In this document: positions 18,296 through 55,230 of the stretch, piece after piece | Numbering within the stretch: the first letter of the stretch is position 1 | How the letters are laid out: each line of letters starts with the position of its first letter | NCBI RefSeq assembly: GCF_000003815.2 | Contig: NC_049992.1 | Coordinates: 10,342,755-10,406,754 of the forward strand | DNA from: Branchiostoma floridae | Taxonomy: Eukaryota; Chordata; Leptocardii; Amphioxiformes; Branchiostomatidae | Direction of reading: 5' to 3' | DNA: 64,000 nt | Notes under the pieces: model-generated | What the model saw: the letters and a program-made list of their open reading frames with translations, nothing else | The model's database searches: none | Told to the model about the DNA's origin: nothing | Made by a program: the position numbers and the translations under genes

Positions 18296-18300
18296 CTTGG
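18290..18300 (-). promoter_or_regulatory. YY1-like motif over the start codon of gene B
   Basis: The minus-strand sequence CAAGATGGCGG overlaps the ATG of gene B. AAGATGGCGGC is the known YY1 consensus, often found just downstream of transcription starts with the ATG embedded. A very short 5' UTR would follow. Seen by motif only. Confidence 0.4.
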
Positions 18301-20612: not shown

Positions 20613-20653
20613 CAACTCTATGTAACTCAGCTTGCCGGTGGTTCCTGACGTAT

Positions 20654-27568: not shown

Positions 27569-29569
27569 TCAAATAACAATAGTATCATCGTAAAGAACCT
27601 GGTCGATGAGAAGCGAGTATCGCCTCGTCTGAAAGATCGTCAACAGTGTTACAAAGACCATAATGGCGAGGAAAACTGTGGCAGTGACTGCAAAGATATG
27701 GATAGCATACAGTGGTTGGTAAAACAAATCGGCCTCCTTCTCAGTTTGTACGTTGATACAGAATGTTCCAGCCGGAGGAGCACCGTCTTTAATCTTTTGA
27801 GTGCTGCTTCCAACATCGACAGATACACATGTGTTGTACACACGGCCGGGCTTCAATCCGTCAAAGGTATACACGTCAACGTCATCTCCGAGTTGCACAG
27901 CACGGAGCAGTACTTCATCAGACACTTTCACCGTGTAATTGGCCTGTCTGGAGATGTTTCGAATACCCCATTTAACTGTTATGGATGTTTTGGTGGCATT
28001 GAGACCTGACACGTCAATGTTTGACAGTTCGCAGAAGCGGCCGTAGTAAAGAATGGGGCATTTACAGAAGAACCCGGTAGCTCTTTGTATGCAGACGCCG
28101 TCTTGTTGACAGATGCTTGCATCACAAAATGTTTCTTCCGTGCTAAGCTGTCCCTTTGCGCTTGGTACCGAGGGAACATGAGGGCGAACCTTTCCAAAGA
28201 CTTCGTTAAACGAACTGCCTTTGATTGCATGAGTCACCGGGAGGACACTCTGTGGGATTTTGGAGCCAGACTTTCCAAATGAATCATTCCTGGTCGCTAA
28301 TGGGACTGCAACAGTGCTATGCTGTGTGTGGTTTTTCATGTTCACATCGTGTGGATGTGTTTTTGAATCACCAGAAGAATATGCACTTTCTATTGCCAAA
28401 GAGCTCTTTGGCAAATCAGAGCCTCCAAAGTCATCTTTAGAGCCAGTCATAAGGTTGTTGAACTGTCGTCCTTTGACGTTGAATGTATCGCTATTGGGCC
28501 TTTTGTACTTGCTCCCACGTCCTGTTGATCCATATTTCTTATGCTTCAGAGGCAGATTTCCTCTCCTGTATGTTTTCCTGGTGATAGTGGTTAATCGTGC
28601 TTGTCGGCTTCTAATCGGTTTATTCACAGTACCATTGAATGTTGAGGCGCTGTCACGCTCCTTCGGCTTCACGATCGATAGCGAACTCCCTCGGGATGTG
28701 AAGGGCATTAAGGGTAGACCATCGCCACCGGTGATGCTATCTCTGGTTTTCATCATGTTTCTTCCACGACCATTAGACTTGGATAATTCATATTGCACAG
28801 CTTTTTGAGCCACACCGTCTCTCTCTGTTGTCGCGTTGGCAAGCGATGATGGTACGATGTCGGGCATCTTGCCTCCTGTTTGCTGCAAATGATTCACAGT
28901 TTCCTTTGCGTTGGTATCTTGATTAGCCGCAGTGGAATTGATCAGCGTTTTCAGAGAGTCATATTTTGGCTTCTTTCCAAGTGAAGATTTTATCTTCTCT
29001 GTCATATCACTTGTCTTATTCTGATTCACAATTGTTAAAGATTTATTCAACCCAAGTTTCTCAAGCTTTGGTGATAGTTTATCATGCAGTATCGAGATCA
29101 TATCGGATGCAGGGGCATCCTTATCCAGCAGGTCTGAATGATGTTCGCGAGTCGAGTCGTTTCTTGTGCCAGTGAATGAAGTTGCGGTAGCTTCCCCATC
29201 ATGTCTTGAGTTACCTACAGAACCGACAGATGTGTTTTGCCTAAGTTTCTCGTTGACGAATGTTGAACCAGATGAAGAATTGCTTCTCTTTGTTGTCGAC
29301 TGTGCCAAGAGAGTAGATTCCGCATCATCCAAAAAATCGTTATCGTCTTTGGGCAATTTCAGGAAGAAAACTGTCGACTTCATCTTTGTTTCTTTTCGAC
29401 TGTCATCAATTTTGTCACGACTAGCCGGATATCCAAAGTCGGCGTTGTCTGCATCCGTGCTCTTATCTATGGCCGGCGCTGTCAATCCGCGTCCGTCATC
29501 CAATTGTTCTTCATTGTCCTTTAGGATGAGCCTGTCAGACTGTCTCTCCAACCACTTCATTACATCTTT
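27569..29569 (-). CDS. P1: EGF-FN3-like type I membrane protein (N-terminus in gap)
   Basis: Open from the gap edge to TAA at 27569; at least 663 aa from the first visible Met, and open upstream of it (KDV before MKWL). Residues about 1-470 are a hydrophilic, Lys/Ser/Thr/Asn-rich stalk with many N-glycosylation sequons. About 478-511 form a six-cysteine EGF module ending YYGRFCE. About 512-605 form an FN3-like module (VKW strand, FDGLKPGRVYNTCV). A membrane helix lies at about 617-640 and a ~22-residue tail contains YSLL and YDD. It has no introns. Paralogous to P2, P3 and P4. The segment at the gap (KDVMKWLERQ) resembles the end of an LRR C-cap, so LRRs could lie in the gap, as in vasorin; that is inference. 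Confidence 0.82.
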   Translation of the reverse strand, partial: KDVMKWLERQSDRLILKDNEEQLDDGRGLTAPAIDKSTDADNADFGYPASRDKIDDSRKETKMKSTVFFLKLPKDDNDFLDDAESTLLAQSTTKRSNSSSGSTFVNEKLRQNTSVGSVGNSRHDGEATATSFTGTRNDSTREHHSDLLDKDAPASDMISILHDKLSPKLEKLGLNKSLTIVNQNKTSDMTEKIKSSLGKKPKYDSLKTLINSTAANQDTNAKETVNHLQQTGGKMPDIVPSSLANATTERDGVAQKAVQYELSKSNGRGRNMMKTRDSITGGDGLPLMPFTSRGSSLSIVKPKERDSASTFNGTVNKPIRSRQARLTTITRKTYRRGNLPLKHKKYGSTGRGSKYKRPNSDTFNVKGRQFNNLMTGSKDDFGGSDLPKSSLAIESAYSSGDSKTHPHDVNMKNHTQHSTVAVPLATRNDSFGKSGSKIPQSVLPVTHAIKGSSFNEVFGKVRPHVPSVPSAKGQLSTEETFCDASICQQDGVCIQRATGFFCKCPILYYGRFCELSNIDVSGLNATKTSITVKWGIRNISRQANYTVKVSDEVLLRAVQLGDDVDVYTFDGLKPGRVYNTCVSVDVGSSTQKIKDGAPPAGTFCINVQTEKEADLFYQPLYAIHIFAVTATVFLAIMVFVTLLTIFQTRRYSLLIDQVLYDDTIVI

Positions 29570-29994
29570 NNNNNNNNNNNNNNNNNNNNNNNNNNNNNNN
29601 NNNNNNNNNNNNNNNNNNNNNNNNNNNNNNNNNNNNNNNNNNNNNNNNNNNNNNNNNNNNNNNNNNNNNNNNNNNNNNNNNNNNNNNNNNNNNNNNNNNN
29701 NNNNNNNNNNNNNNNNNNNNNNNNNNNNNNNNNNNNNNNNNNNNNNNNNNNNNNNNNNNNNNNNNNNNNNNNNNNNNNNNNNNNNNNNNNNNNNNNNNNN
29801 NNNNNNNNNNNNNNNNNNNNNNNNNNNNNNNNNNNNNNNNNNNNNNNNNNNNNNNNNNNNNNNNNNNNNNNNNNNNNNNNNNNNNNNNNNNNNNNNNNNN
29901 NNNNNNNNNNNNNNNNNNNNNNNNNNNNNNNNNNNNNNNNNNNNNNNNNNNNNNNNNNNNNNNNNNNNNNNNNNNNNNNNNNNNNNNNNNNNNN
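29570..29994. other. Assembly gap (425 N)
   Basis: A run of 425 Ns that removes the 5' end of P1, including its start codon and signal peptide. ORFs crossing it are artefacts. Confidence 0.97.
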
Positions 29995-32900
29995 GTATAA
30001 AAGCTACTATAATTGAAATGGTGACTTTTCACAGTACGGTCAGTTTGGGAAATGTTCAGTCTTCTTCATCGACTAGGTCCTTTGTTAGACTCGATGATGA
30101 AATAATCAAAGCGAAAATTGATTTTTTTATGCACTGAAAGACCAAAATATCACCACATACATCTAAATTCTGCAGTCTTGAAATACACATAGACTGACGT
30201 GTTTGTTTGGACAAGATCAACTGTCTGCAAATCATTGGCCACGTCAATGTTCGGAATCCAACTGTAATCAAAATACACAGTTTGCACTGCTCGAAACATC
30301 TAATGATGTTTACAATCCATCAGAAATTCGAAACGAGAGTCTTTCATAATGGGTAAATGATGTCGCGATTCTGAGTTATGGTTCATAAGCTACTTCTTCT
30401 GCAGACGCCACAATGATAGGCTCAATTTCCCATATTCATAAAGGATATGCCGTGGAAGGTCCAGATGGTCTCCCTAATAGAGTTCTGTGATGGCGAACTG
30501 TTCTCTGACAAGTTGGGTGTTGCACAAAACAAACGTCTTCAACGCAATGGACAACGCCGCACGGTGGACCAGATGCCGTTTTACCGACGACGCTCTTGGA
30601 AACGTCCTGTGGGGGAAAGTTGATTCTTTAAGAAGACAATGGATGCAATAAATGGTTCTAGCAAAGAAACGTTCAGGAAAGCATTCATAGATACTATTAT
30701 ACTTTGGGGCCCAAGAGAGAATCTGGCCCTGTAGCATGTACAGACAAGAAACAGGCCCAATGGGAACGATGAATACGCTGATGGAGAGTCCCAATTAAAT
30801 GCTGAGTTGTTCGAAGTTACGACGAAGATAAAAGATGGCAACGGAGGATCATGGATCACACTCGGTGCCTCAGTATTAAGTTTTACGTATTATTAGACAT
30901 GCAAAGTATCAGATCGATAGAATGTGATCTATTTTTGATACGTGAGTTATAATGATTTTTGCAGTGGTTGCACGATGAGATTCGAGATAAGTACATAGAT
31001 ACATGTATGTAACCCATTTGGCAAATAATCGTTCCATACATTATTCCAATCATAGAGAGTAATGTGATTTAATGAGATACACATGGACAATCTTGGAATA
31101 GATTGAGTCTAGTCAAGACTTCTTTCTTCTCCTTTCATTTCCAAAACTCTTTGTTTTGAACATTTGACACAGTCTGTTTTCAAGTGATTCCGTACATCGA
31201 AAACCACATAGTACTGCCAGCTACAATAAATATCATAAATCCCAACGCTATCCTTCAATCTTTGGCAGCGGTACAAGCACATTCGTATTTCCTACACTAT
31301 GGCAAGTCTATAACAGTTTTCTTGCTTACACTACAACACAGCCAGACATAAGATACCAAACTGTATTACAAGACGTAGACCAAATACCAACCAGTGGACA
31401 AGTGCATCAATCATCAGACCAGGATGCGTACAGAACAGATGCAGACCTGATACGCCGAGAGGGAAACAGACGTGCAGGATAATGAAAGATGCCAGCTTGA
31501 CGGCAGCTTGCTGGAAGGTAAAAGATGTAGAGGCACAGTCCAGGTGATTTTTAAAAGTTATTCTCAGATAAAGCACTATACATTGAGAGTAACGTTGTAC
31601 ATCTTCAGCGTTACATGTATACCACTGTTACAGTCGGCGCAAGCTTGGCACACAGCCAGCTTTGGATCCTGTAGAACATCAGCAAAAAACTCCCCTCGTC
31701 TTTATCCGAACCGTTACCATGACTTTTTCGGAAAAATACGGTTCTCTTCGATCGAGGTTTCTTGATGACAAATCACAGCAGAGCTGCATTACAATTGCTC
31801 TTTTGGCCTTCTACATGGCAGTACGTCTTGTTTAGAGACTGTTCTGCCCTGTCAGATAATTGAACACGCCAAACATAGTCAATACCTGCATCCGATGGGA
31901 CTTCTCCGGCGCACAGCATAGCAATATTCCGTACGTAACGAGCCCGCTCATGAATTCTAGCGAGCTTTAATGAATAATTGATAGTCTGCTTGGGTCTAAG
32001 ATTTCAGTATGGAGAATAACTGGTCTTACAGCCGTTTTATGCGAGGACCATCTCGTAAAAGTGTTGTTTTTCTAACGATGGTCTTTTAAACATTTACAAG
32101 CTACTTAATGGAGAATTTGCCGGTTGGTATCGTACGCCTTTCAGTAAAAACAAGTAATGATGTATTAGATAATCACAATCAGGCTGTGCAGTTGCTCGGG
32201 TTATTGTTAAAGACGGGTTAGCAAAATGATTTTTCATGATATGAAATTTAATAAACCCAGCGGAAATTGTCGCCTTCTAGTAAATGCAATTACCTCTGAT
32301 GTTTCCATTGTCCTTTGAAACTACACAGAACTTATCTATAGAATAAACCGGAGCGACTATGATCGAAGATGTCAAACCTACTTGCTTTCATTAAACTCCA
32401 GTACTAACGGTTTGGTAATGTGCAAAGATTATCATAAATGCGTTACCCTTTAAGGCCTTCTAAACCCTCTACATCAAGGACTGATCTGACATTTTTCAAA
32501 TATACACGTATATATAGTAGATAGAGATAATTCCATTACGTACATATACCGGTAAATATGTTTCTTTCTGTAGGATTGGTAACGACTTATGTTGAACCTA
32601 CCTCTGCCCTCGTAGAAAACAAAAGAGCCTTACCGATATATCCGAGCAGAGTGCTGTACATCCAGTCAGTGTAGCTGTGACGTTAGCTCACCTCCTATCA
32701 CTGCTGCCCGGCCGTCACTATCGCCCGGGTTATCTGAGAAAGGCGCTTGCATACGATGAAAGAGCGATGCGGAAAACGCAGTGACAGCGTTTCATGTGCA
32801 CGGAGACTGTCCCCTCCGCGGCTCTCCCCACGTAATCATTTCAACCATCTCCCGGCAACCTCATCGAAAGGCAAGTATCCCTGGAGTCTCCCTGCTGCAG

Positions 32901-35900
32901 TTTCCGCTGAAATTTATTGCCCTCCAAAGGGTTGATTGACGACCCATCTTATGTTTAAAGCTCGGAACTTTCTACTTCCATTGTACCAAGGTCACCTTGC
33001 GGAAGACTGGTTGTAAATCTTAAGAACATGAAAGAGCTGAAACTTTGAGATGTGTACTTTAATGCAAAAATGAATGCCTCAATTGCTAGAAAATTACACA
33101 AGTAAATACATGTTAGTTCACCATCTTGTCTATTGTTTCTGGTTGATCACACGCAAGGGGTTGTTAGTATTGATCGGTTTGCATTACAAAGTGATCAGGT
33201 CTGATTGACAAGCCGTCCGTAGTGAAGTAACCCCGTTTCCGTAATACAAGACGTTCCGTCATGTAACTTGGTACTTTTATCATTGAAGATGAACGGTAAG
33301 TGTTACTAGTGCTATGCATACTAAATTGAGCGATCGTGCCATCTGGCACTCTCCCTTCTGCCCATTGCAATGTTTCAGGGAGTTTGAATACGTCGTTATA
33401 GTTTGGAATCTACTTCAGGGGATGTGAGTTACGGACGGAATGGGTGTGTTTGCGTATTGATTCCAGGCAGAACAAATGGAAGATCCCCCTAGCAAATGTG
33501 CCGCAATTTCCGGACAGGTTTGTAATCAATTCTAGGTTTGGAAAAAGCCACCTCTTAATATACTGTTGAGTCAGCCATGGGCAATACCTGCAAATGCCTC
33601 TGTTTTACTGAAGTCAGGCACTGTCCAATAATGGTAAAACTGTAATAGTTTTATGACTCATTTCCGGCAAATATTGGTGGTTGGGCCGTAAGGCAAAGAT
33701 GTATAATACAGCAATCAATTACTGAGATATTGCAAAAAAGCATGAGAAAATAAATGTTTTATAAACATAATCACTTGATTGAGAGAAAGGTGAGGTCGGA
33801 AGCACCCTCATTCTGAAAGCAGTCCTGTCGCCATTTTCTCCATTGTGTTTAGGGAGTATTTCCCGCATTCAGTGAGACTGCGTCAAGATATCTTTCCTTG
33901 GCATCTTTTGGACATGCAACAGTTGGAATAATTCATTGATCAATCCTGTATGGTATCGATTATCTATACCTATCTGGGAAAATGATCCAGAAGGCCTTGG
34001 GTTCTGATTGGTATCTCCCTCCACTGTTCGGTAGATGCTTGTCAAACCATTGGGATGCATCGGTGTCGCAAACTTGACTTCTTATTATAAAATCAATTGT
34101 CTCTATACTGCAACATGCTGACCGGACTCAACAGCGTTAGGCTAATATATAAACGTGCAGACGTCGATGAAGGTTAGACATCCAGGTAATAAGATATGCC
34201 AAAAAGTAGTTACTCGAGAAACTGGATAAGATTTTGGAAACGGTCAGACGTGTTAACTAGCAACTAGTTTTCGTCAGTGACACTGAAGTGATCTGGAAGA
34301 AACAGGTCTTTTATACCCTAAGTATGAATGAAGACAATTTTAGATGTCCAATAGGAAACATGTGAGACAAATTCAGGCTGAAGACAATTTGGATTCCAAT
34401 AGAAAACAAGGCTAAGACACAGTTGATGCAAATGAGTTAATTAGCGTACATTTTTGGGGCTTCCCTGTCGTAATGAAATCCTCTCGTGAAACCTCAGACA
34501 CACGTTTATTCCAATAGATCAAGAGTAGATATCAGCGCAAACGGCGTCCCAAATGAAACGTCCATTCCACCAGAAGTGGATCATATGTTCGAGTATCCAT
34601 TATGGGACTATTATGTTGCGTGGGCCTCGTAGTTCTTGTTGCTTCAGGCCTCTACAGGGCATCGTTAGATGGGAAGTTGCGCCGTCTGGGATTCGCCTGA
34701 GGCGGTCAGCGTCAGCAGCGATCCAAATGAGCGATGAACCGGAACCCACGTTCTTTTTTCTTCGAGCCACCGTTCTTACCGCTTGGGTGATTGCATTGGG
34801 GGTTGTCTGATGGAGATTTTTCCCGCATCCTCGTCTTGCATGTTCGCGGGCTTAAAAGAGCAACTTGGCGTTTAGCTTTATGGTGAACCAGGGCGACCGA
34901 AATGACCGAAATGTATTCTCTTGTTTGGAAACGTACGTAAAATGCACAAGATAGCTGCCACAGAGGCACTTAACGTCTTTCTTTTCTCCGTTGAGTTAAA
35001 AATGAGTACTTAGCTTCAGGATGTCTTCCGTATAATGAGCCATAAAACCGGAGGCCCTTTGTCTGAGGAGAGGCACACATCAAGCAAGTTAAAAATCCGA
35101 ACACATTTGTCGAAGAGGCTAGGGATCCATTCCGGTGCGAGTTGATCAAAACAGTTCCATTTCGCACAGCTTGTACTTACTGTACAATACTGGTGTTTTA
35201 AGGCCTAGATATTTATTGTTTATTGTGAACTGACTTGGTGTACTGATTATACCAAACAAACAAACAAAAAACAAGCTAACAAGCAAAGAGAGTGAACGCC
35301 CATAACTTCGACTGATGATAACTCCCTGGTAGGCAAATGTAATATCACAGTTCTTCACCTTGACAGCATACAAATGAATGCCGGTGTGGTATTCATTACC
35401 TTGTATAATTAATGATGTGCACTTTGCAAAATGTAAATCCTTTGCTCAGTAGTCTGTCGTTTACCTTCCCTTGGAGACTAAATCGCAATAGCAATGACAT
35501 TTCCAAATCTCTAAATTAACTGTGCCAATATGTCATGTAATAAAACAACTAGACATAGCTTTGCACTAGCGAAAATTGATTCTTCTTGCGTCAATTCAAT
35601 GAAACAGTCACATTTCTAATTTTTTGTCGGTAAAATGTATAGTTTGTAGTTAGCACTTAGCAAGTTGTTTTCAAAAGGCGAATGTCTTGATTTGGTACTA
35701 TGACACTAAAAACCGTGACAGATTCTTGAAAAGCTCTCACTCCGCCCTATCACCCCGCTACCCAGCCAGCAAAAAGGACAGACTATTGACTACTGGCAGT
35801 GCACAGAGTTCGACTTTTATCGGCAGCGTACCTAAATCTCAGCACTGTGTTCGACCTTCGAGACCACAATGCGTTATTGACTGTGTAGACAGCTTTTATC

Positions 35901-38832: not shown

Positions 38833-39195
38833 CTAGTGTTGACGATATCTAGGTAGGTTGGGTTTGACTTCTTTTTTGGAAGCAGAGGAAGGTAGAAGAA
38901 AGCAGAGGAAGAGTCCCACTTTTTCTACAAATTGCGGGTTTTGTGATTTTAAGAGGAAAGTGGCTTTTTCTTCGTCCGTAAATGTGGGAAATTTGGGGAA
39001 TATAATTGTGATTTCTTTAAACAATGTGATTATTTCGGTGCGGTTAAATGAACACTTGGAAATAAACTGTGTTTCGTCCTCCACTGCTTTAGATGTAGAG
39101 TATTTACAAATTATTTCACACACTGGTAATCTGGTAACAGTATGCCCCAGACACTGCTCTCCCCGTATCATCGCAGCAGGATGCAGCTCACGCAT
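38833..39195 (-). mobile_element. Non-LTR retrotransposon (LINE) ORF2 C-terminal relic
   Basis: The minus-strand ORF of 120 codons reads RLPVCEIICKYSTSKAVEDE, then THF-like 'TQFISKC', then TDEEKATFLL. This matches the conserved tail of many LINE reverse-transcriptase proteins (C-x2-C, a VEDE-H-F motif, later a DEEK-x-x-FLL stretch). Upstream RT motifs are missing, consistent with a 5'-truncated insertion. It lies about 100 bp upstream of the P2 leader acceptor, hence probably in the P2 5' intron, in antisense orientation. Confidence 0.65.
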
Positions 39196-39383
39196 CGCAT
39201 CTGATTTATTAGTGTTAATCAGAGCAGCCAGTAGCTATTAATGATTTAATCTGTTCTAATGCACATTTATTCTTCCGATCCTGCACTGGTTTTCATTACA
39301 GCCACCTCGGAGTCACCACCGGAGGCTGTGGTGGGGCGGATCTCCTGAACTGCACTTTTGTACCACATACTGGATCAGCCATC

Positions 39384-40928
39384 ATGCAATTGTCTGCGTG
39401 TGCAAGGTCGGTCTTCGTTCTTATTTCATGGACAGGCTTGGGGCAAATGTTTACAGCATCTGCAGCGCCCATAGGGGTGTCATGGAGTACATACGGTATA
39501 CAGACGTCTGAAAGTCAAACATCCCCAACGGAGGCGGCCATGCGGGGTGAAGGAAACATCGCTTCTCCCTGGAAATCCACCACCACAGATGCACCTACCA
39601 ATGGACTTGTTACTACCACTGCTGCAACAACCCAAGGGAATCTACGGGAAAGTCATTCAGACACGGTACGGGCGGCAATGGGAGAAGATGCATCGATAGA
39701 ACCAACAGAATTGCATCACGATGTGAACAAGGAAGGCAGTCCTGTTGAAGATGATATTCTACCAACTGATGCTTGGACGAAGGTCGCTGTCAAAAGCAAG
39801 GAAGAAGACTTTGTTGGTTCGTCAATCAAGGTGAAGTCTATCTCTGATACTGAAGACTCTGGTCTTTCTCTGGTACGTGGAGGCGACATGATGAATGTGC
39901 CAACTCCCAAAAGGTCGTGGAGCAACAATGTCACAAGCCCCCGCTTAATGAAAATTGGCAGCTCTGTTCAGGAGGCGGCAGGGAGCTTAGAGTTAGATAC
40001 TACTAATGGACCTAAATTGATTCCAAAATTACTCATCATGTGGAGCACTTTGCAACCCTCTGTCGATACGAATTTTACCGTGGATAGCGCCAACACACAC
40101 GAATCGAAGCAATCTGCAAAGGCGATTAACGATTCGTCAAATGTTCCTCGTCACGCCGAGATAAAATCACCAGCTACTGGGGAATATACCCAAGAATATT
40201 TCAGTTTAGAGTCGTCGTTGTCTGAAAAAGCAGCAAGGTCGAACAGCAGCGCTGCCGTCGTTGACATTGAAGAGAAGAGTAGATTGCCGGACTTCATTAA
40301 CGTAACCGCGCAAGTGAGCCTTCCGCAAATGTCAGGACTTTCATCTGGCGCAGGGAAGAATGATTACAGCACTTACACAAGCCATGGGTCAATGTGTAAA
40401 TTTTCCAATTCTACTACATGTCAGAACAACGGCACGTGTACTACCGAGAACGGCGGGTTCGCATGCACATGCACAGCGTTCTACAGGGGGCGCTTTTGTG
40501 AGGAGTCCAAACTGAAACTGACTGTCGGTGAAGCAATAGGCAAGTCGGCAACAGTTCACTGGTCGATGGAAGGCGTCAATGGCACCGTCATAACGTCGTT
40601 GTATCTCTCTAATGGCTATAGGTGGGACCACGTCAGCACCAGTCGTGACCACAGCAGCTTTTCATTCGATGACTTGAGCCCTCACCAACATTACAACGTA
40701 TGTTTGGTAGCTGTCATGCACACTGAAGTAGCGATTATGAGAGGGATGGTCTGCGTAGATCTTCAACCAAGTTGTAAAGAGAGAAGCTTGCATGATACCG
40801 TTCTGTGGATTATACACGCTCTGTCCATTTGCATCACTTTCTCGTTATTCTTGATCGTAATGTGGGGGCTTACTGTGGCTTGTAACACAAACGAAATCCA
40901 ACACTCTGTACTTGTGGAAGATTACTAG
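39384..40928 (+). CDS. P2: EGF-FN3-like type I membrane protein
   Basis: One coding exon, 514 aa. A signal peptide (about 1-28, FVLISW core, cleavage near TASAAP) is followed by a 300-residue Ser/Thr/Asn-rich stalk with many sequons. Then come a six-cysteine EGF module at about 338-373 (CQNNGTC, FYRGRFCE), an FN3-like module at about 374-460 (VHW, FDDLSPHQHYNVCL, with a partner Cys in GMVCVD), a membrane helix at about 472-498 and a short tail ending VLVEDY. An excellent splice acceptor, TTTTCATTACAG, lies at 39301, 82 nt before the ATG, so the gene has a spliced 5' leader. The membrane-tail region (IVMWG..ACN.N) is closest to P3. Probably a cell-surface adhesion or receptor protein; ligand unknown. 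No homolog search was possible. Confidence 0.88.
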   Translation: MQLSACARSVFVLISWTGLGQMFTASAAPIGVSWSTYGIQTSESQTSPTEAAMRGEGNIASPWKSTTTDAPTNGLVTTTAATTQGNLRESHSDTVRAAMGEDASIEPTELHHDVNKEGSPVEDDILPTDAWTKVAVKSKEEDFVGSSIKVKSISDTEDSGLSLVRGGDMMNVPTPKRSWSNNVTSPRLMKIGSSVQEAAGSLELDTTNGPKLIPKLLIMWSTLQPSVDTNFTVDSANTHESKQSAKAINDSSNVPRHAEIKSPATGEYTQEYFSLESSLSEKAARSNSSAAVVDIEEKSRLPDFINVTAQVSLPQMSGLSSGAGKNDYSTYTSHGSMCKFSNSTTCQNNGTCTTENGGFACTCTAFYRGRFCEESKLKLTVGEAIGKSATVHWSMEGVNGTVITSLYLSNGYRWDHVSTSRDHSSFSFDDLSPHQHYNVCLVAVMHTEVAIMRGMVCVDLQPSCKERSLHDTVLWIIHALSICITFSLFLIVMWGLTVACNTNEIQHSVLVEDY

Positions 40929-43481: not shown

Positions 43482-44636
43482 TCAATATCCATTTTGAGGG
43501 AAGTCCGATTCCTCTACCAGTAAAGTGTAGTCATTAGAGTAGCATGCGGTCCCAACTCCCCACATGACGATAATAAATAGGAAGGCTGTTATAACGATAG
43601 CCAGTCGGTTGATCAGTGGCCATCCGTAGACATGGTCATCTTTTCCTTCCGTCTTAAACTGTCCACAGCAAGGAGTGCAGTCTTTATTCCTCTGCACCCA
43701 CCTTTCAGATAGTACGCAAGCGCTGTACGTCTCCCCGGAGAAAAGTCCCTGGAAGACGTATTCGCCGGATTTCTTGGTGAGACTGACTTCTGTGCTGAAT
43801 TTCTCGGCGTAAACGTAGACGTAGAACGGTTCTGGAAAAGGCTGTGATATGTTGAAGTCACGCCAGTCAATAGTGGCTAAGCTGGTGGTCACGTTCTTGA
43901 TTAGGACCACAATGCCGGCTAGATCGACGTCACTTCCGTTATAGACATCGTTGGAGCGGAAACAGCCAATTTCAAAGTCATACTCACAAATAATCCTTTG
44001 TGACTGTGTCTGTGGTACCAAAATGTAGTCATGGCCTTCCGCGGGCGTGGGTTCCACCGTTGTTAAACTTTCATCTCCAAGGCTATAATTTAGCCCTGGC
44101 ATACTTGTAGACTTTTTATCAATAAAAGTTCTGGTCATGTCTCTCCACGTTGCATTTGGTCCTTCGTTCTTTTCGAGTTTTTGGTAGGTAATATTGGATA
44201 TTTTTGTCTGGTTAACTTCGCCTCTACGATTTTCTAAATTTGTAAAGAACTGTCCCATTCTTTGGACCTCTCCACCCCCTAGTTTACCTTTAGTAAAGTA
44301 ATTTCCTTTTCGACTAGAATTCCACGATGTTTCATTTAGATCAACGTTATGTTGTACACTATTGTTGAGAGACGCCGAAATGTCTAATTCTTTCATATTT
44401 GTGTCATTGGCTGTTAGGTTCCTACTGTCCTTAGGAACGGCATGTTGACTGGTGTTTGGCGTTTGCATTGTCGATATGTTAGAGGCAGTCATATTAGGGG
44501 CAGTTGTGCTTTGAAGTTGCAAACTGGTGTTTGTTGTGGTACCACTAGGAGGACGTTGGGCAGTAGTCATCGTGACACTTGGAGATTCCACCAGTGATAG
44601 CAGCAAAAGAAGCGAAAGAGTGTGTTGTCTTGCCAT
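43482..44636 (-). CDS. P3: FN3-like type I membrane protein with degenerate EGF
   Basis: One coding exon, 384 aa, ATG at 44636. A signal peptide (LSLLLLLSLV core) is followed by a Thr/Asn-rich stalk (to about 215) with dense sequons. At about 216-234, where the paralogs have an EGF module, only C-EYDFEIG-C remains. The FN3-like module (IDW, FQGLFSGETYSACV) spans about 235-325 with extra cysteines (CTPCC). A membrane helix at about 342-364 ends IVMWGVGTAC, very like P2, and the tail contains YTLLVEE. Acceptor TTTTCTATCTGCAG lies 15 nt before the ATG (exon start 44651), so a spliced leader is expected (see 45269-45328). Function is unknown. Confidence 0.86.
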   Translation of the reverse strand: MARQHTLSLLLLLSLVESPSVTMTTAQRPPSGTTTNTSLQLQSTTAPNMTASNISTMQTPNTSQHAVPKDSRNLTANDTNMKELDISASLNNSVQHNVDLNETSWNSSRKGNYFTKGKLGGGEVQRMGQFFTNLENRRGEVNQTKISNITYQKLEKNEGPNATWRDMTRTFIDKKSTSMPGLNYSLGDESLTTVEPTPAEGHDYILVPQTQSQRIICEYDFEIGCFRSNDVYNGSDVDLAGIVVLIKNVTTSLATIDWRDFNISQPFPEPFYVYVYAEKFSTEVSLTKKSGEYVFQGLFSGETYSACVLSERWVQRNKDCTPCCGQFKTEGKDDHVYGWPLINRLAIVITAFLFIIVMWGVGTACYSNDYTLLVEESDFPQNGY

Positions 44637-44763
44637 GTTAGCCAGTGGTCACTGCAGATAGAAAATAAGCGAGTTGTGTTCATTAGACAAACGCAGGAAA
44701 TGCTTTCATAGCCATACTACGACATTCACGGTTTTAAAAACATGTTTTTTAAACTTCCTTGCA

Positions 44764-44932
44764 TGCACATATGCATACATATACACATAGATATGCACAT
44801 TTACATACACATGTATATACAAATACACATGTGCGTACACATACACACACACATACACAAATATAAATATAAATACGAAGCTGCATATACATAGATTAAC
44901 ATACATTTACACAGATAAATACACATTTACAT
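44764..44932. repeat. Imperfect CA/TA-rich simple repeat
   Basis: Low-complexity ACATA/ACACA-type sequence in the presumed 5' intron of P3. The Tyr/Val-rich ORF on the minus strand comes from it. Confidence 0.85.
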
Positions 44933-45268
44933 ACGTTCAGAAATGCTTAATAAATACATGTGGAACAGAGCAGTACTACGAAACCATAGTACAGACAATA
45001 CAACAGTGGAGGAGGAAAAGTATTGTACAGATGAGAGAAATAATGATTTGTGACGACTGAAGCAAATAGTATTGTATTTCTTTTGTCATATCTATAATAG
45101 TGTGTAATCAGATAGATAAAATCTTGTTCCTTTGCGCATTGATCAAGCACGTGTTTCAGAATGTGTGCATATGTTTACTGCAATTACGCTTGACGGAAAT
45201 TAGCTTCAAGAGGTAACGTTATACGCAGTTTTACAAATGTGTACATACATACAGTATTCATCACTCAC

Positions 45269-45328
45269 CGTGTACTGTAGAATTGATACTGCACGGGGGA
45301 CGAGTCCTGTCGTGGTCTAATTCTCCGG
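45269..45328 (-). other. Putative 5' UTR exon of P3
   Basis: A 60-nt segment bounded by acceptor ATATCTTTTTCCTCAG and donor CACG|GTGAGT on the minus strand, upstream of the P3 acceptor at 44651. A further strong minus-strand donor, CCTTCAG|GTAAGG, ends at 48834 and could close the first leader exon. Together they suggest a leader of two exons and a 5' region of about 4 kb. Splice signals only. Confidence 0.5.
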
Positions 45329-48300
45329 CTGAGGAAAAAGATATAACGATTAAGCCCTTTCATTTTTCTATCAGTTGATAAGCTTATAAATGAATAGATA
45401 CTCTAAATAGGAACCCCACCTAACACAGATTATACGTGTCAGTCTGCCCTATCCTTGTCAGGGTAGCTGGACGATAATGGCCCTAGAAAAGGGGGCCTCA
45501 ATGGTCAAACTGGCTCTCTAGGGCGAGTGTACTTCTAGTATAACCCACATGCAAGTACAGTTATTTCTGGAACGCCAGCGTGTAATATAGTTCAGGATAA
45601 ATTGAGACATTCTTATCTGATGATATCAACAGATGAGAATGCAATAATCAGAACTTAATTGCAGACGTCGGAAGAGGTAATGAATTATATAACTAGAATT
45701 TTAGATCAATTTACATGGAATTTCTATAACAGTGTTGAATTTTGAACATTTCGTTGCCCCATACTGCTTGATGCAAACTAAACCTAAGCATTAACGACTT
45801 AGCTCGCGGTTTATTGAGCTGTCCTGTGGATTTTCCTTCTATAGGCTGATTAGTGTGTTCATAAAGCCACCATTATACATTTTGCAAGGTGTAGTACTTT
45901 CAGTCCATACAGGCGTCTGTTATAATCAAAGTGCTTCCAGAATCGATCTTACCTCAATACTTTTAATACGTGTAACACGTAGGATGTTAGTCATTGGGAT
46001 ATTGATTTAGCAAATAATCTATGCAGTATTTGTCATATTAATTGTATAGATTTCTCCACAATATGCTTCTCATTTCTTCGTATCTTCTCCCTTTTAGCTG
46101 TATATCATGAAATTTAGCCGTCTTTCTTTAAATTTTATCTCATTTTTTATCCCTACACATAAACTCCATCGACAATTACCCCCCTCCCCCTAGTATCAAT
46201 TTCTCATCTGTCTCAGATCGTTTCACTTGAGTATAAAAAGGTTGTAAGGAACATCTGCTTGTAAATCGATAACACTCTAACGGCTTGTTTATAACATTAG
46301 CACTCCTCGGGCGGCATGTTGGTTCGAAAGCAATTTCCGATGACCCAAATTTCCTCAATGTAACCTAGTAGAAAGCTACAACTTAGCTTGATGTGCTGTT
46401 TTTCGTTATATTGATGGACACGCATTTAGAATTGACATCATTTAGAATATAATTGATTTCGGAAGTAGGCATAGTTTAAGATGTAGGCAATCAGTTATCA
46501 GCTGTGCTATGGTCTTTAGATTTGCTGTATTAGAAAGAAATTGTCCTAGTCCGAGAAAATAGTCAGAAAATTATGACTGTCAAGAACCATATTCATACAG
46601 CACCATAGTTCTGCTTCTTTATGATACCATGATACTAAAACTATACTTTTACAATTTACGGCTACTATTAGACACCACATTAACTTTTGCATGAATAGAA
46701 CCAGAACATGCTTACTATTGATCTTTGAAAATCTATGTAGATTTCCGCTCAACCTGCATGAATATTCACATCCACCTTTTTCTATGGATGCGCACACCCA
46801 TTTGTCAGCAAAGATGTTTATTATCGTTTCCAATTATGTAGTGTTCATTAGAAACGCCTCCAGCATTTTGTAGTTCCTTGATTGACGTCATATGCATACC
46901 GATGGGAGATTCTCTACAAATTCGAATTTCTTAAACTTAATGTTATTGTCAGAACAAAATTCAATAGTTTGAGGCATACGATGTCTCTAGCTTTATATGA
47001 TTTTCTTTTTAATCTTTTTTCAACAACCTAAACAAAGGACTTGTTGACTGGTTTATAACTTGTTCATAAAGGCAAGGAAAATATACTTTCAATTATTTTT
47101 CTAGACATTTGCGCACACATTAGACCTTTAGCGTTGGTCTTTATTGCCTGTTGTTAAAAGAATTACCCGTTATCCTCACATTTAAGTTCTATCGTACCAC
47201 AATTGGTTTCCTGAGTAATCATGCTGATATGGAGAAGAAAACACCCGTTAACAGGCCTCTCCTTCAGACGATAGCGACCCCTCTGAGACGCACAAGATTT
47301 AAATGGATCGTTCAGTGCGAGAGGCAATCTCAGCGGACGCGCCTTGGAAGGTGCTAAATCACACACACTGTGCAATTGTGCTGCTGCCTGCTGCTCGGAT
47401 ATTCTCCAATCAAACATGCAAGGACATCGCTCTCAAGAGACTGTAAAAAAGGATGCAGTTCTGAATGGATGGAAACCTGCTTTTTCTCTAGCCTGGAAAG
47501 TAGGCGTTACGTTTTGCCTAGTTTCTGGGCTCTGTACGTGTTGCTTAAATATCAAATTAAATATCAGTTTTCTGACTGCTATCAGTATTCTGACAGACGA
47601 CCATCCCTTGGTATAAGGCAATCCTGGAAGCCTGCTATGGAGGCTACTTCTTTCACTCTCGGTATCGCTCAGAACTTTGCTTTTTACGCTCCTGGCTTAT
47701 CCAAAAGCCCGCACTCTATTCTAATCTTTTAATGTTGCTCGACAAAGCCCCTTTGCGACGTTGTAGCGTTGGCACATGCCCTTGATGGTTACGTATGATA
47801 TTAATCTTGTAGCCAGAACTCATGCAAGCTGATGAAATATCAAAACAGTGCCATGTATCACCTTGGGTCGACCTTGGTGATTCATATGCCCTGCGGCGAT
47901 GTGCTGTCATATTCTTATTGGTCTGTGAGTTTACGATAGCGAGATGACAGTGATATTCCTTTCACTGCTTGATGTTTTGTGTCCTGAATGAAAATCAAAC
48001 ACTGTTTGTGTGTGTTAACCATGACAAATATTATTTCTACGCTGCACTGAGATACCTTCGCAAAGCACATAAGAAGATTAAGTCTCTCTTATCGTTTAAG
48101 ACTGCAAGATAAGACGTAATTTCGAGTCATTTTTACCATAACTGGACGCTTAAAAAAAGGCATTCAAGTCACGATTTTTTTTGGATATCGCGTTCTCAGT
48201 GTCGAGTATGTTTAAAGAGCATCAAAGACGAGTCTGTATGTATGCCTGGGGTGAAATTAGCAGTACATGTAATCTTGTCTTGTCATTCATAACAAGCTCT

Positions 48301-50926
48301 GTTGATATGGACCCAATAACGATCAATGAATATCGCCATAGAACTATTTTAGTGGCAACTTTAACAAGAGTGTCGATGATGCTATGGATACAGGATTCAT
48401 ACAGAGATGCACCAAGATGTTATAAAGATGTTGAACTCACCGCCCTCTAAATGTTGTCAGTTGAATCACCACGGGAAAGCACACCCACTCCAACCCTTTC
48501 ACTCGCCTTGTTCGCTATCTACGGACCCCCTATCGCCTTACAGGCCCCAGGAATATCTATCTCTTCTTAAAACCATATTTACATAATACCAGTTCACCCA
48601 AAGAGGCAAAAATCAATAAATGTGTTTCTAAAAGGCTGTACCTGTCGCTTGCAACACGCGAAATTTCCAGCCTACTAAACAAGGAAAAATGTTGATGTTT
48701 GTTAAACAATGGGGCCAAATGAGGGACGTTGCATCAAAGAAAACATGATGACTGTGAGATGATATGGCATACCGTTATATCAAGTATCTATAGCCCAGTG
48801 ATACAGCCTTAGAAAAAACATAATGAACCTTACCTGAAGGATTATCCGTGGTCTCGGCGGACGTTATTTGGAAACAAACACCGCTTACTGATCTTAACGT
48901 GACCCGGATCACGCTAGGCCCTACCGCTGTCTTATCGTAAAATCGAAGACGGAATCCCGAGCGGTGACTGATGGATAACGTCTATCGGGTCCGACTTCGG
49001 GTATTGAAATGATCTTAGCATGGTCAGGGCAGGCTGCAATCATTATGCACCCGTCATTCAATGCCATGTAGCCTATCTGCATCACCGAGAGTCATCATAA
49101 ATCAATGCACACATACGTGAGGCGAAATATCTTGAAGAAAATCAATTCATTCATTAGATTCGTTTCACCTACACCAGCTCCAAAAAGAACGTTATTGGAT
49201 GTTCTAACATTGCTGAATGCGTCGCAAGGTTATGACAAATGTCTTTGACACTAAAAGGGAAATTCCAATAGAATTCCGAATGTTCTTTAAGCGTTAGAAG
49301 ACGTCTTGAAACTGTTAGTTATTTTTTGTGTGTTCAGTGCAAAACTCGTGATAAAATAGAACATTGCAAAAAGGGCGCGTTCTTTACATCCACATAATTT
49401 TGAAGCCTGTTATTCACTATGTATCATGCCGAGCACATCACAAAGAGCGCGCACTATCTCACTTCTACATGTATGTCTGCACATGGCATGGAAATTTGTC
49501 GCCTCATGTTTCTATAACATTTTCTCAATGTACCGTGACAGGAGATCATATGTTCTGCATCGCGTATGTACGATTGTGAATTCATCACCCAGACGGGTCT
49601 CATTCAGGGGTTCGTTCACCGGAACAAAGCCGCGGCAATCTGGTAGTGGGTGACGTCATTGCCTTAACGCGATTGGTGGTTGGCCTTGGTATCATCTGAC
49701 GTTCAGCTTGACATTTGACCCGGGCTCTCATCTTCTGGTAAAACAGAGCCGACCGTGTCATCCGTCATGGCACGGCGTATAGGCGGAACCGTCAGGATTT
49801 CTTACGGACACGGGCCTACCGTGATTGATTGGAACTGCATTACTGCCCCTAACGATGTAACGCAGGGCCTTAAACTTTATAGGATTGAGTTCTTGTCTGT
49901 TGTGACTGCAAAAGTAGCTTGGCAGTACGTGTAAATTTCCATGCATTGACTTTCTGTATTATGCATTATTTAGTAAGCACTGTGGCAACGCTCTGAAATA
50001 ATTGATGTCCCAGTGAGGTTCTCATTATGTATTTACAATAGATATTACGCAATATAAGAATACTGCTAATGCACAACGTAGCTTTCGCCAACATGATATA
50101 AAACAGTGGCATTGTCAAAACAGGGTATACGAGGTCACAATTAAAGTTCTTCATACACAGCCATGAAATTTATTAAGAGCCAATGTTTTGATGACCATCT
50201 GTCATCGTCGTCAGGGCTATACTGACTGATATACAGTGAACTGAAGTTAGGTGTTACAGGTTCACAGTGCACTGGAACTGGGTGATGCAGTCCCAAACCT
50301 AAAGTATTGTTATATCAGTAAATATTCTCAGTTAACAATGGTTAAACGATGCACTGAATAACTTCAAGTATTTTATAATTCACCAGGGTGTACGAGGGTA
50401 GACAGGAGTATGAAAAGTAGGTATTTGATATTTTGAAGAACAAAATCTATTTATGTCTGCGAGAGGCGACAGATATATGTTTTACCCGTTACTGATAGAC
50501 ATGCTGCATTGCATGTTTAGAATGGAAAACTACTGTCTTAATAAGATCTGAAATGTCAAAAGAATCGTAGCCTATCAAAGCAGACGATTAGCCTCTGCAG
50601 ACGACCAGGCGACTGGATGATTCGGACGATTAACGTTATCGATTTTGTGCGTCATTTCTACGCTAATATGTGCGCGCAAGTAATTCAGGAATTCCTACTT
50701 AGTATTAATAATTCGATATTCATAAATCGTTATTGACTAGGCGGTTACCTTTTTGTTAAAGTTGAAAAAGAAAGATAAATGGACCACGCATCGACAACGT
50801 ATTACATGGTGGCCAAAATGTGATTTCAAGGGAAGGACGAGAGAAAACAATACGTGGAGAATTCAAATAGAATTCAATCTCTACAACTGGATAAAAAACG
50901 GAGATTTACTTCCGGACGTTTCGATT

Positions 50927-50985
50927 GACATCCTTCACTCTTCTTCAGTGTCTTCTAGTAACGCTGAAGAAGAGTGATGGATGTC
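50927..50985. repeat. Near-perfect hairpin with 22-bp arms
   Basis: Left arm GACATCCTTCACTCTTCTTCAG at 50927-50948; the right arm at 50964-50985 is its reverse complement with one mismatch; the loop is 15 nt. A 17-bp sequence continuing from the right arm recurs in reverse at 34167-34183, so this is likely the end of a dispersed element. Confidence 0.85.
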
Positions 50986-51222
50986 TAACCTTCATTAATG
51001 TAATACATGGAGAAATGATTGGGATGTCCCGGATGGGATGGAATGAGACGGTGGGCACCATAGACCTCCTGCAACGTATGATCAACTGCTCACTGAGTCA
51101 CGTGTTCTATCTGCATGATGTGACGTCACGGCAGCAGTGGATTGTTCATTCCTTGTTAAAGACTGGTGCTGTTCAGTCGAAAATTTGGGTGAGTCCAATT
51201 TTGGTGTTTGATATTACAGTTT

Positions 51223-51325
51223 AGCCTGGTTAAATCTCGCTTTATAGCAGCCCGCCAAACATCCGCCGGCCCCCTAGTGGGGCCAGTTACAGCCCTGGAC
51301 AGCTGAGTTTGTGTTACACAGACTA
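51223..51325. mobile_element. Small TE relic, TAGCCTG family
   Basis: Starts TAGCCTGGTTAAATCTCGC and ends GTTTGTGTTACACAGACT. The same two ends frame the segment at 63155-63259. No coding content. Confidence 0.5.
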
Positions 51326-52609
51326 ATTACAGTTAAACTAGTTCAAGAATGACTGCTACCAACACAGATGAACTTTCATATCATAATGGTGTAATTGTTG
51401 GTATGATTGAACCCTTTTAGTCGCGACCGGTTGAATATTTCAGACTCAGTTCTTCCATTAGTCCATCCAAATTCAGTGTGCGGCCATCATCCTAGTACGA
51501 ATAAGAAAATAAAAAACCGTAAGCTTTAGTCATCTGTAAATAACACAACTACTGTAGAACATATTTGTCAGAAACTTGCACTAAAAACTAATATAGCAAT
51601 TAATTCCGATATATCAGTTAGTTTTTAATTAGGACATGTTGATTTAATTACATAAATGACATCACCTGGGACCCCCAAACCTAATGCGAGTATGCGAATA
51701 AAAACTAGTTTGGCAAAAAAAGTTGCGTTCATTATGAAACCTAGTATTTGGTCAGGAAGATTGAACACGAAGAGTATGGTATACCGAACAATATATTCTT
51801 CATTTTCATTCTTTCACATCTTCTTCTATGACCCTGGAAATGACTGTGGCATTCTCCGACATCCGTATACATATCAAATTCCGATATTGTTTTTGTCATC
51901 TTCGACATATATTTTTTTCAGTTTTCAGCTGCTTTTGTACGATTCATGCATGGTTGATTTTTTTATTTTGAAACGGCCGAAAATTGATGCGCGCGTGGAT
52001 GTCATCCACACACTCATGTCAGCATGGCCAGACTCTGCATTGTACTTGCTGTGCACCGTTACCTTCAACCCTTTTATGATGAAACGCAATTGAATTCACG
52101 CGAATATATCGCTGAACTGGTATTGATATTGGATTTTCATGCATGCCTGTACTTTATATATATATATACATGGAAAGATGTTTATTTGTCACAATAAACA
52201 GATCTAACAAACTAACCTTAGTGTTCTTTGGGCAATCCCTCGCAGTGAACGTAATGTCACTTTTAAAAGACGTGACTTTATCCAACTGAAGATAATTAAA
52301 CTGGTTGAGATCATCATCATCCCAATACAATAAATAAAAAAAAGGCAGTGACCTGAGACAAAGTCAGTTGATAAACCTATGAAATAAGATAGCATTGCGT
52401 GAAATAAAATGTATTTAAAAGGGGCATTTGAATAAGCAGTAGGCCTTATAACAGACGCTTGGTGTACTAGAGGTTTGGCCTGGGGTATTGTCAAATAAAG
52501 TCACCAAATACGCCCAAAGGAATTCATTTCATACGATAGAGTCAACTTGCATTGGGCCATAGATATTATTCATAGACATCTTACTGTTAATCTAAAAGCA
52601 AACATATCC

Positions 52610-52752
52610 TAGTGTGAGTACCATCATTCATGGTGACCACTGGTTCAATTCTTTCGCTTGCTAACCACGTAGTCTGGACCTGGGTGTATACCCGTGGTTA
52701 GCAAGCGAAAGGATTGAGACAGTGGTCACTACGGAGGATGGTACTCAGGCTA
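52610..52752. mobile_element. Hairpin MITE, TAGCCT family
   Basis: About 60-bp inverted arms around a ~22-bp loop. The left arm ends TTTCGCTTGCTAACCACG and the right starts CGTGGTTAGCAAGCGAAA. Outer ends are TAGTGTGAGTACCATC and GATGGTACTCAGGCTA. Confidence 0.8.
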
Positions 52753-53871
52753 AACCTATCAACGCAGCATTTAAAGGGTCAACCATTATCCTACACAGGC
52801 CGTTTTATTTGGTCACGAGAGGGGGAAACGGTACCGTTTTCGAAAAGTATTGCTCCCCTCTGTATGAGTAAAGGCAGATCTCCAGTGACTGTTATGTTGG
52901 ACACTGATTGGTCCTTTTGGATACTGCCTTGCCTGATCTACTTGGGGGTTATCTTGCTACTAATATTCTTACTGTCTGCTTTAGATGCCGGTTTGAGTTG
53001 TTCCGAAGTATACATAGCGACATCTATCAATTTAAGGAAGAACTTCATTCACAGGTAAACACACTATCAGATTTGTAGGCAATGGGTAAGCTCTCAGGAC
53101 TGGGATGTTTATTATGTTAATCAGTACATGGATTAGAGTAACCTGTAAAGCCGTTGGCCCCGAAACGATAGTTTTGCTAACGAAATGCAGTTGTTAATCC
53201 CTTTAATAGGATTGCGTTTGACTGTCTCCCTGAATTTTTATGGTCCATGCATAATAGATAGACTAAACCTCCTAGCAGTGGTAATAGGAGTAAGAAATCC
53301 ACACAGGAGATTAGAAATAACTCATATACAGTAAGAAATAACTCATATACAAAGACCACTACAAGTAACATGTATTAGTTGCCACTATAACCCCTGCTAC
53401 AAACATAGGCATTTAATTCTTCTATTGTTGCCACCAACGTTATCAATACTGTCATTTGTTGTTGATGGAACTTTGGACATTATATTGGCAATGTATGGTA
53501 TTAAGGAGCAAAAGGATGATGTAGCACTTGAGCAATATGGAGTGCCATGTCTGCAGTAAAATAGTAGAAAAAAAAACCACACAATATGAATTGTAAAATA
53601 AAACTTATATGAAACAAATATGGAAGGATTTTGCTCTTTTGTCACATCTATGCAAACCGTAAAATATATGATATTGCTGAAAAATAAAAATAAAAGTTAC
53701 CTTCAATAAAATGTTTAGATCGAAGATGATTGTCATGATGCTTCTCCTATTCATAACCTGACACACTATAGACAACAACATGTATTATAACCTGGCTTAA
53801 TCTGACACCATAGGCATCAAATATCTTAAACTATAGCTCTACCGTAATAGGAAATACAAATTCAATGAAAA

Positions 53872-55230
53872 TCACCACTGCCTACAATATCTGGATGCCG
53901 CGTAGACTGTCAGAAATACTAAAAGTAGCAGAATCCATATGGCAGAGTCAGAAATGATGGCGAGTCTCTTCTCCTTCTCCACCCAGGGTTCGCTGATGGA
54001 GAAGTCCTTGCAGTTGTCGAAGTTCACGGGCGCTCGCACCATCCCGTCAGCGATGGGGGACACGCATGCGCGGTAGTTCACATCCGGGTGCAACCCTTCC
54101 AGCGTGAAGTTTCTGGTAAAAGCGTCGAGCTGAACAGAGTATTTAAACTCGTAGTCTAAACCCTGCATGTAGCAATCTAGCTGAAATCCTGAAATCGGAT
54201 AGCGTATGTCGATTTCCCACCATATTCGCACCGACGCGAACACGGGCTCGTTCACGGAGAAGTTGACGATCATGCCGCCCACAAATTCCTGGCAACGGTC
54301 TCCTGCAAACGTCGGTAAGCACGCGCACCTGGGCTGCCCCTTGATTACTGTACAGATGCCGTTATTCTCGCAGTAGTCGTCGGGACATTGGAAGTCCTTG
54401 GTTTGCAACCGGGGGCTTTTTGTCGCCTTTATCGGAATCTCCGTTCCGGGAGTCTCATCTACAGCAGTGACAACAGCCACGTCAGAAGAATCATGCAACC
54501 CTTTCTCGTAGTACCCAGACCCCAAAATGTCCCCTCTTCTCACCACACGGCGAGGTGGGACCTTCGCAAAGTCGTGCCCATTACTCCGACCTCTGGTTCG
54601 TCTTTTGCTTGTTGCCGTCGTCTTCAGTCTTATTCCTCCACGAACGCCATTCCCGTCGCTATGTCGGAACTCATCGTAAGATTTCGACCTTTCCCACTCA
54701 CTAATACCGGATCTAGGCACAGTCACGTGATGCCGTCTGCCTGGTGTCATCTGTGTAGGTCCGGTTGTAGAAGTGAAAACACCGTGAGAGTGTCGTAACC
54801 GAGTATTACTCTTTTTCCTAACATTGGGCGGGTCGAATCTCCCTGTCAAAGGTGGCCGAGGAATATGTGAACTTGGGTGTTCAATCTCCACGTTATAATC
54901 CCCACTTGACGTGTCTTCAGAGGTTTGATGTTTGGCATCTATTGCTTTTGAAGAATCTGTCACGTTCTCTTTGTCTGTCCCGTTCCCAAGTGGTTTGTCG
55001 GTTGGCTCGAAGTATATATCTTCAGAGTAGCCGGATAGTCGAGTGGGCATCAACTCCTTTGTTGAAACCGTTCTGTGCCTAGCTTCCATCCACACACCCC
55101 GGGGTACAAAGATCCCTGAGTCCCCAGTAGGCATTGGAGAGGTCCGTATGGGGAAACACGTCGCCTTGTCCGGTAGAAGGTGAACAAGGTACATGGTACA
55201 GACTGCCACCCATCCTGAATCAAGCTGCAT
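53872..55230 (-). CDS. P4: EGF-FN3-like type I membrane protein
   Basis: One coding exon, 452 aa, ATG at 55230. It has an N-terminal hydrophobic segment (VAVCTMYLVHLL) acting as signal peptide, then a basic, Arg/Ser/Thr-rich stalk to about 279. A six-cysteine EGF module follows at about 280-314 (CENNGIC, FAGDRCQ). The FN3-like module spans about 315-414 (IWW, FTLEGLHPDVNYRACV, partner Cys in FDNC), the membrane helix about 426-446, and the tail is only a few residues (YCRQW). A possible leader acceptor (GTCTGCTCTACAG) lies 22 nt before the ATG. The stalk differs from the other paralogs in being arginine- rather than lysine/asparagine-rich. Another strong donor (ATGG|GTAAGT) ends near 57427 and could close an upstream leader exon. 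Confidence 0.86.
   Translation of the reverse strand: MQLDSGWVAVCTMYLVHLLPDKATCFPIRTSPMPTGDSGIFVPRGVWMEARHRTVSTKELMPTRLSGYSEDIYFEPTDKPLGNGTDKENVTDSSKAIDAKHQTSEDTSSGDYNVEIEHPSSHIPRPPLTGRFDPPNVRKKSNTRLRHSHGVFTSTTGPTQMTPGRRHHVTVPRSGISEWERSKSYDEFRHSDGNGVRGGIRLKTTATSKRRTRGRSNGHDFAKVPPRRVVRRGDILGSGYYEKGLHDSSDVAVVTAVDETPGTEIPIKATKSPRLQTKDFQCPDDYCENNGICTVIKGQPRCACLPTFAGDRCQEFVGGMIVNFSVNEPVFASVRIWWEIDIRYPISGFQLDCYMQGLDYEFKYSVQLDAFTRNFTLEGLHPDVNYRACVSPIADGMVRAPVNFDNCKDFSISEPWVEKEKRLAIISDSAIWILLLLVFLTVYAASRYCRQW

Follow-up and report, generated by a model that had tools for sequence, protein, structure and literature searches.

Four clustered amphioxus membrane proteins that may correspond to the EGF-FN3 half of leucine-rich repeat receptors

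The stretch of Branchiostoma floridae DNA analysed here (64,000 nucleotides; GCF_000003815.2, NC_049992.1, contig 14, positions 10,342,755-10,406,754 of the forward strand; hereafter the window) contains four long open frames, P1 to P4, all inside 28 kb, and raises the question of whether a cluster of EGF-FN3 membrane proteins without leucine-rich repeats (LRRs) constitutes one family and how it is related to LRR receptors. The guidance of axons and synapses depends on single-pass LRR receptors, in which the EGF and FN3 domains close to the membrane are often regarded as spacers; in a cluster that retains nothing but this half, nature would have done the experiment of letting it work by itself. 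Three of the four proteins have the domain order EGF, FN3, transmembrane (TM) stretch, P1, P2 and P3 group together, and no LRR was found in the window. The explanation favoured, tentatively and at slightly less than an even chance, is that P1-P4 correspond to the EGF-FN3-TM half of vasorin-type single-pass receptors, with the LRR domain missing; a role as ligands or decoys is proposed for them. Neither the domains nor the order in which they stand is new, and the effect of the finding, drawn from sequence evidence only, is a modest one. The frames and their domains are as follows.

27569..29557 (-): P1, putative type I membrane protein, at least 662 amino acids, N-terminus lost in a gap of N
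28031..28126 (-): P1 EGF, six cysteines, PF00008 17.6 bits, under the cut-off of 21.5
27743..28024 (-): P1 FN3, fn3 25.5 bits, with one cysteine each on model strands F and G
27620..27718 (-): P1 TM stretch, limits approximate, from hydrophobicity and a model helix
39384..40928 (+): P2, 514 amino acids, with a moderately hydrophobic N-terminus, extension, EGF, FN3, TM stretch and short tail
40395..40499 (+): P2 EGF, six cysteines, PF00008 18.7 bits, under the cut-off
40506..40793 (+): P2 FN3, fn3 18.9 bits, under the cut-off
40794..40889 (+): P2 TM stretch, limits approximate, from hydrophobicity
43482..44636 (-): P3, 384 amino acids, with an extension carrying 13 sequons, FN3, TM stretch and short tail, and no EGF
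43641..43922 (-): P3 FN3, Fn3_ELFN 18.9 bits, under the cut-off of 27
43536..43625 (-): P3 TM stretch, limits approximate, from hydrophobicity
53872..55230 (-): P4, 452 amino acids, with an N-terminal extension, EGF, FN3, TM stretch and very short tail
54292..54387 (-): P4 EGF, six cysteines, PF00008 18.5 bits, under the cut-off
53998..54291 (-): P4 FN3, FNDC10 model 30.6 bits (genome search) and 31.5 bits (module scan), cut-off 27
53884..53970 (-): P4 TM stretch, limits approximate, from hydrophobicity

The strongest hydrophobic stretch lies near the C-terminus in each of the four proteins and is followed by a tail of fewer than 20 residues. The original prediction, made from the letters of this stretch, had given all four the order stalk, EGF, FN3, TM helix and tail; FN3, TM stretch and tail are present in all of them, while the EGF is present in P1, P2 and P4 and absent from P3, in which the region before the FN3 has two cysteines, not six, and for which the Pfam scan listed no EGF model at E<=10. 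The four C-terminal FN3 signatures that it quoted were all found in the translations, and the FN3 homology of the cluster is real, as judged from profiles and alignment. For P1, the fn3 model reaches 25.5 bits with the FN3-TM part alone (cut-off 25) and 22.3 bits, below the cut-off, with the whole protein, while the FN3-TM parts of P2 and P3 rest on Pfam scores under the cut-offs together with alignment. An AlphaFold2 model of the P1 module (built from four sequences; mean pLDDT 71.9) has seven strands followed by a long helix, with cysteines 106 and 129 on the model strands 102-110 (F) and 127-133 (G), and Foldseek matched it to the FN3 of fibronectin and to engineered FN3 domains (TM-score by target of 0.77 for 1fna). 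Sequence searches of the PDB returned EGF and FN3 domains from a wide range of families, which leaves the kinship undecided.

A leave-one-out profile of the module, EGF and TM stretch included, scored 73.9 (P1), 76.1 (P2), 39.9 (P3) and 30.1 bits (P4), against 16.0, 11.8, 6.6 and 6.3 bits for the best of 2000 module shuffles, and thus the EGF-FN3-TM part is shared above chance (30-76 bits versus at most 16). Among 1643 window frames of at least 25 amino acids, P1-P4 are the only ones to match the P1-P4 module profile below E 2. With the FN3 alone the leave-one-out scores were 32.7, 14.8, 23.7 and 14.8 bits (1000 shuffles: 10.2, 6.0, 7.7 and 7.9). In the same tests the FN3 of an LRR-Ig-FN3 gene (L043) scored 37.6, 32.0, 36.8 and 27.7 bits, beating the held-out protein in four of four, and the best of 20 ordinary FN3s (hand-spread picks from 150 listed, all strong Pfam fn3 matches) reached 15.6, 14.5, 16.6 and 17.2 bits. 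The family is thus not closed by the FN3 alone; P2 does about as well as the best ordinary FN3, and P4 does worse.

In a tree of eight modules (P1-P4 and those of four LRR genes), P1, P2 and P3 form a group (96/98, starred) and P4 falls among the LRR genes. The best partner of P4 among the other seven modules is that of the LRR gene L042 (42 bits), with P2 at 39 bits, and P1 against P4 gives 30 bits, lower than P1 against any of the four LRR genes (39-43 bits). A single clade of P1-P4 costs 0.8 log units in the module tree (p-AU 0.245, not rejected) and 7.6 log units in the FN3 tree described below (p-AU 0.259). The FNDC10 model (PF17742; cut-off 27) matched P4 with 28.7 bits for the whole protein and 31.5 bits for the FN3-TM module, and P4 was the only one of three genome matches over the cut-off (30.6 bits; others, 17.1 and 15.0); for P1-P3 and the four LRR modules, this model was not listed at E<=10. 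By the module comparison, P1-P3 are one small family, and P4 may be a separate branch nearer FNDC10. One family is thus shown for P1-P3 only; P4 leans in part toward a different outside family, although a single clade of four is not rejected. The strands of P1-P4 are mixed (-, +, -, -; P2 opposite to the rest), so that the cluster is not a simple head-to-tail array.

No LRR family was listed for the P1-P4 proteins at E<=10 in the Pfam scan, and a six-frame scan of window frames of at least 25 amino acids with an LRR profile gave nothing over the inclusion threshold, the best match (11.3 bits, E 0.024) being at 279-455 (-), far from P1-P4. The profile was assembled from 26 LRR units, which a pattern had picked out of four LRR relatives; two of these source genes score 243.6 and 138.9 bits with it, as a control that holds by construction. 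An identification of P1-P4 as vasorin was ruled out, since neither the proteins nor the window yielded a significant LRR.

The region that had been called a stalk precedes the EGF and consequently lies farthest from the membrane; it is a membrane-distal N-terminal extension, at the place where vasorin carries its LRRs, and the earlier label is misplaced. The readable extensions of P1-P4 are 471, 333, 212 and 276 residues long and contain 0, 1, 0 and 2 cysteines. They give no mutual blastp match below E 3 (four-sequence database), while the module profile scores above shuffles, in agreement with the earlier claim that the stalks cannot be aligned while the membrane-near part is kept.

The genome (513 Mb, 431 contigs) was searched with P1 (208 candidates, of which 150 were scored, giving 130 matches at E<=1) and with P2. 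The P1 search returned P2 (61.6 bits) and P3 (31.1 bits), and of the listed outside matches that extend from the EGF into the FN3 with the frame open, the best belong to LRR genes (L018/L046, 26.5 bits; L020/L042, 24.8 bits). FN3-TM matches of P1 were found in L045 (22.1 bits) and L043 (18.7 bits), so that L042, L043, L045 and L046, all LRR genes, make up the comparison set. A further match (L022, 24.4 bits) is an LRR-EGF frame without a clear FN3, and most other rows of the P1 and P2 searches cover the EGF part only. P2 returned P1 (61.7 bits), P3 (27.7 bits) and P4 (23.8 bits), with many EGF arrays between. The loci read were L018, L020-L022, L029, L032, L038 and L042-L047. Seven of them (L021, L022, L029, L032, L038, L044 and L047) did not enter the trees, because they hold EGF repeats, LRR-EGF with no clear FN3, or LRR-Ig with no FN3. 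In L042 (C16:7224000-7232000; frame 2064-5201, +) a single frame encodes 1046 residues that comprise LRRs, a linker rich in Thr and Ser, EGF, FN3, TM stretch and tail. L046 has its LRRs on one exon and EGF-FN3-TM on another, and L043 and L045 have LRRs ahead of FN3-TM. With 23 LRR-profile matches, L042 is in its own right a good vasorin-like candidate in the amphioxus genome.

Cysteines of strands F and G occupy common columns across all eight aligned modules. An F-strand motif, [YFH]xxC[VILA], which was picked post hoc, is present in all four window proteins, in all four LRR-linked FN3s and in one of the 20 ordinary FN3s. A profile of the P1-P4 FN3s scored the LRR-linked FN3s at 19.3-39.2 bits and the ordinary ones at no more than 17.4, and the reverse profile, of LRR-linked FN3s, scored P4 at 33.2, P1 at 32.9, P2 at 26.2 and P3 at 19.8 bits. 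In an FN3 tree of 28 rows, P1-P4 and the four LRR-linked FN3s split from the 20 ordinary ones (93/87), with window proteins and LRR genes interspersed. Kinship of the P1-P4 FN3 to LRR-linked FN3s is, on these comparisons, supported but not proved.

Several results weigh against the favoured explanation. The LRR-linked profile gave 33.2, 31.0 and 30.6 bits to the top ordinary FN3s, on a par with P4 and P1 and higher than P2 and P3, and so does not separate P1-P4 from them. The 93/87 split is not starred, the trees have very long branches, and it was through P1 that the LRR genes had been chosen. All four LRR genes are missing from the matches listed for P2, in which EGF arrays rank above P3 and P4; P4 is not among the 130 matches listed for P1, and in the module tree it is outside the P1-P3 group. 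Three outside matches of the P1 search (L015-L017; 28.4, 27.6 and 27.0 bits) score higher than the LRR genes, but cover only query positions 2-68, 5-41 and 5-68, the EGF or slightly more. The tails are weakly alike, 122, 316 and 1011 of 5000 shuffles reaching the P1-P3, P2-P3 and P1-P2 scores. Further, zebrafish that lack vasorin showed no overt axon phenotype (PMC4618557). The predicted LRR-less, vasorin-type offshoot is favoured by the P1 search, the motif, the tree split and the lack of LRRs in the window, and undercut by the LRR-linked profile and the P2 search.

A reading that differs on P4 only, and to which clearly less than an even chance is given, has two lineages: an LRR-less family of P1-P3, and P4 as the amphioxus counterpart of FNDC10 with a history of its own. 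It would account for P4 being alone over the FNDC10 cut-off among the genome matches, and alone in being listed among the eight modules, as well as for the starred group without P4. The FNDC10 match, however, exceeds the cut-off by 4.5 bits and spans positions 77-144 of the 157 in the model, all four frames lie inside 28 kb, P4 matches P2 nearly as well as its best partner, and the cost of a four-protein clade is small. Should P4 instead be an EGF-bearing link between FNDC10 and vasorin-type LRR receptors, FNDC10 and P1-P4 would be LRR-less derivatives serving as ligands or decoys for the parent receptors, a rather improbable extension. Domain shuffling, by which the EGF-FN3-TM order was put together from EGF and FN3 exons, both plentiful in this genome, without any particular relation to LRR receptors, is unlikely. 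It fits the abundance of fn3 matches (1249 candidates; 150 scored, all 150 matched), the many EGF-only rows of the P1 and P2 searches, the failure of the LRR-linked profile to tell P1-P4 from ordinary FN3s and the unstarred split, but it does not fit the cysteines of strands F and G common to all eight modules, the near-absence of the motif from ordinary FN3s or the preference of the P1-P4 profile for LRR-linked FN3s.

The direction of change is a separate matter. The LRR-less form could have come first, with vasorin-type receptors arising when an FN3-TM or EGF-FN3-TM protein gained LRRs, and P1-P4 keeping the old form; the trees leave the direction unsettled, and the interspersion in the FN3 tree would suit this order of events. 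FN3-TM-ended LRR genes are spread over four chromosome-sized contigs (C7, C10, C12 and C16) whereas the LRR-less ones were found in one cluster, a hint only. The older LRR-less form appears quite improbable; that LRRs were lost rather than never present is what we infer. It is also doubtful, and on balance improbable, that P1-P4 are mucin-like proteins of a surface coat, with their function in the glycosylated extension and the EGF-FN3 part only a base for it. Ser and Thr make up 20-25% of the extensions, which have 10, 5, 13 and 2 N-glycosylation sequons in P1-P4, and P3 manages without an EGF, but proline accounts for just 5-8%, no tandem array was found in the four extensions, and it is the module, not the extensions, that aligns.

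Under the favoured explanation, P1-P4 would be membrane glycoproteins built on the EGF-FN3-TM half of an LRR receptor, in which a long, hydrophilic, cysteine-poor extension with sequons takes the place of the LRRs. P1, P2 and P3 would be strongly diverged local duplicates of one such gene, P3 having lost its EGF after duplication, and P4 would have the same architecture, perhaps as a separate branch nearer FNDC10. A tail of fewer than 20 residues leaves no room for a signalling domain, which points to action in trans or to a decoy function. In P1, P2 and P4 the EGF might dock on the LRR domain of other receptors in the manner of the vasorin EGF on Islr2, with the extension setting the reach and free to diverge, while P3 would either have lost the contact or use its FN3. 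In zebrafish the LRR domain of Islr2 binds the EGF of Vasna, and the authors propose a permissive, contact-dependent signal (PMC4618557). By this analogy P1, P2 and P4 could serve LRR receptors as ligands or decoys at the cell surface, a role that is possible if on the whole unlikely.

Among known systems, vasorin, with the order LRR-EGF-FN3-TM, and the vasorin-like L042 share with the cluster an EGF, an FN3 and one TM helix in order and a linker before the EGF, L042 being also one open frame. Unlike them, P1-P4 have no LRR domain, a long N-terminal extension and a very short tail, and P3 has no EGF. FNDC10, presumably composed of an FN3 and a TM helix without LRRs, resembles P4 in that architecture and in the PF17742 match, while P4 differs in having an EGF and, ahead of it, a long extension; the vertebrate orphan seems little studied, and P4 may place it in a receptor family. 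LRRN4CL, a vertebrate LRR-less relative of LRRN4, shows that an FN3-TM protein free of LRRs can exist alongside an LRR family. ELFN1 and ELFN2 (PF22986), whose coding sequence lies in the 3' exon, have a membrane-near FN3 that P3 matches weakly (18.9 bits, under the Fn3_ELFN cut-off of 27); ELFN has six LRRs (PMC2235866), and none were found in P3. An LRR-less EGF-FN3 family in amphioxus was not found in titles and abstracts of the searched literature, most subscription journals being outside its scope.

Successive frames of the cluster are separated by about 9.8, 2.6 and 9.2 kb. P2, P3 and P4 open with ATG and a moderately hydrophobic N-terminus and are open single frames, putatively single coding exons as read from sequence alone, while the P1 frame enters an assembly gap of 425 N (29570-29994) in which its true start is hidden. 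An intron in the 5' untranslated region adjoining each start, as in ELFN genes, was considered and dropped, as acceptor-like sites are frequent by chance (117 of 499 random 100-base stretches). A YxxL-type motif common to the tails of P1 and P3 was likewise rejected, shuffles matching the tail scores too often.

Elsewhere in the window, three frames on the reverse strand (9676-10647, 17927-18319 and 20340-20741) each have one hydrophobic stretch by eye and no Pfam match over the cut-off, and look like membrane proteins by their appearance. Near the last of these is a Thr/Pro-rich, mucin-like frame without a Pfam match (19413-20015, -), and a CA/TG dinucleotide repeat at 13511-14035 lies beside a 100-base N gap (13729-13828). 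Tandem C2H2 zinc fingers are encoded by two overlapping frames of different phase (60011-60541 and 60441-61067, -), the shift within 60011-61067 appearing as if from an intron or a frame break.

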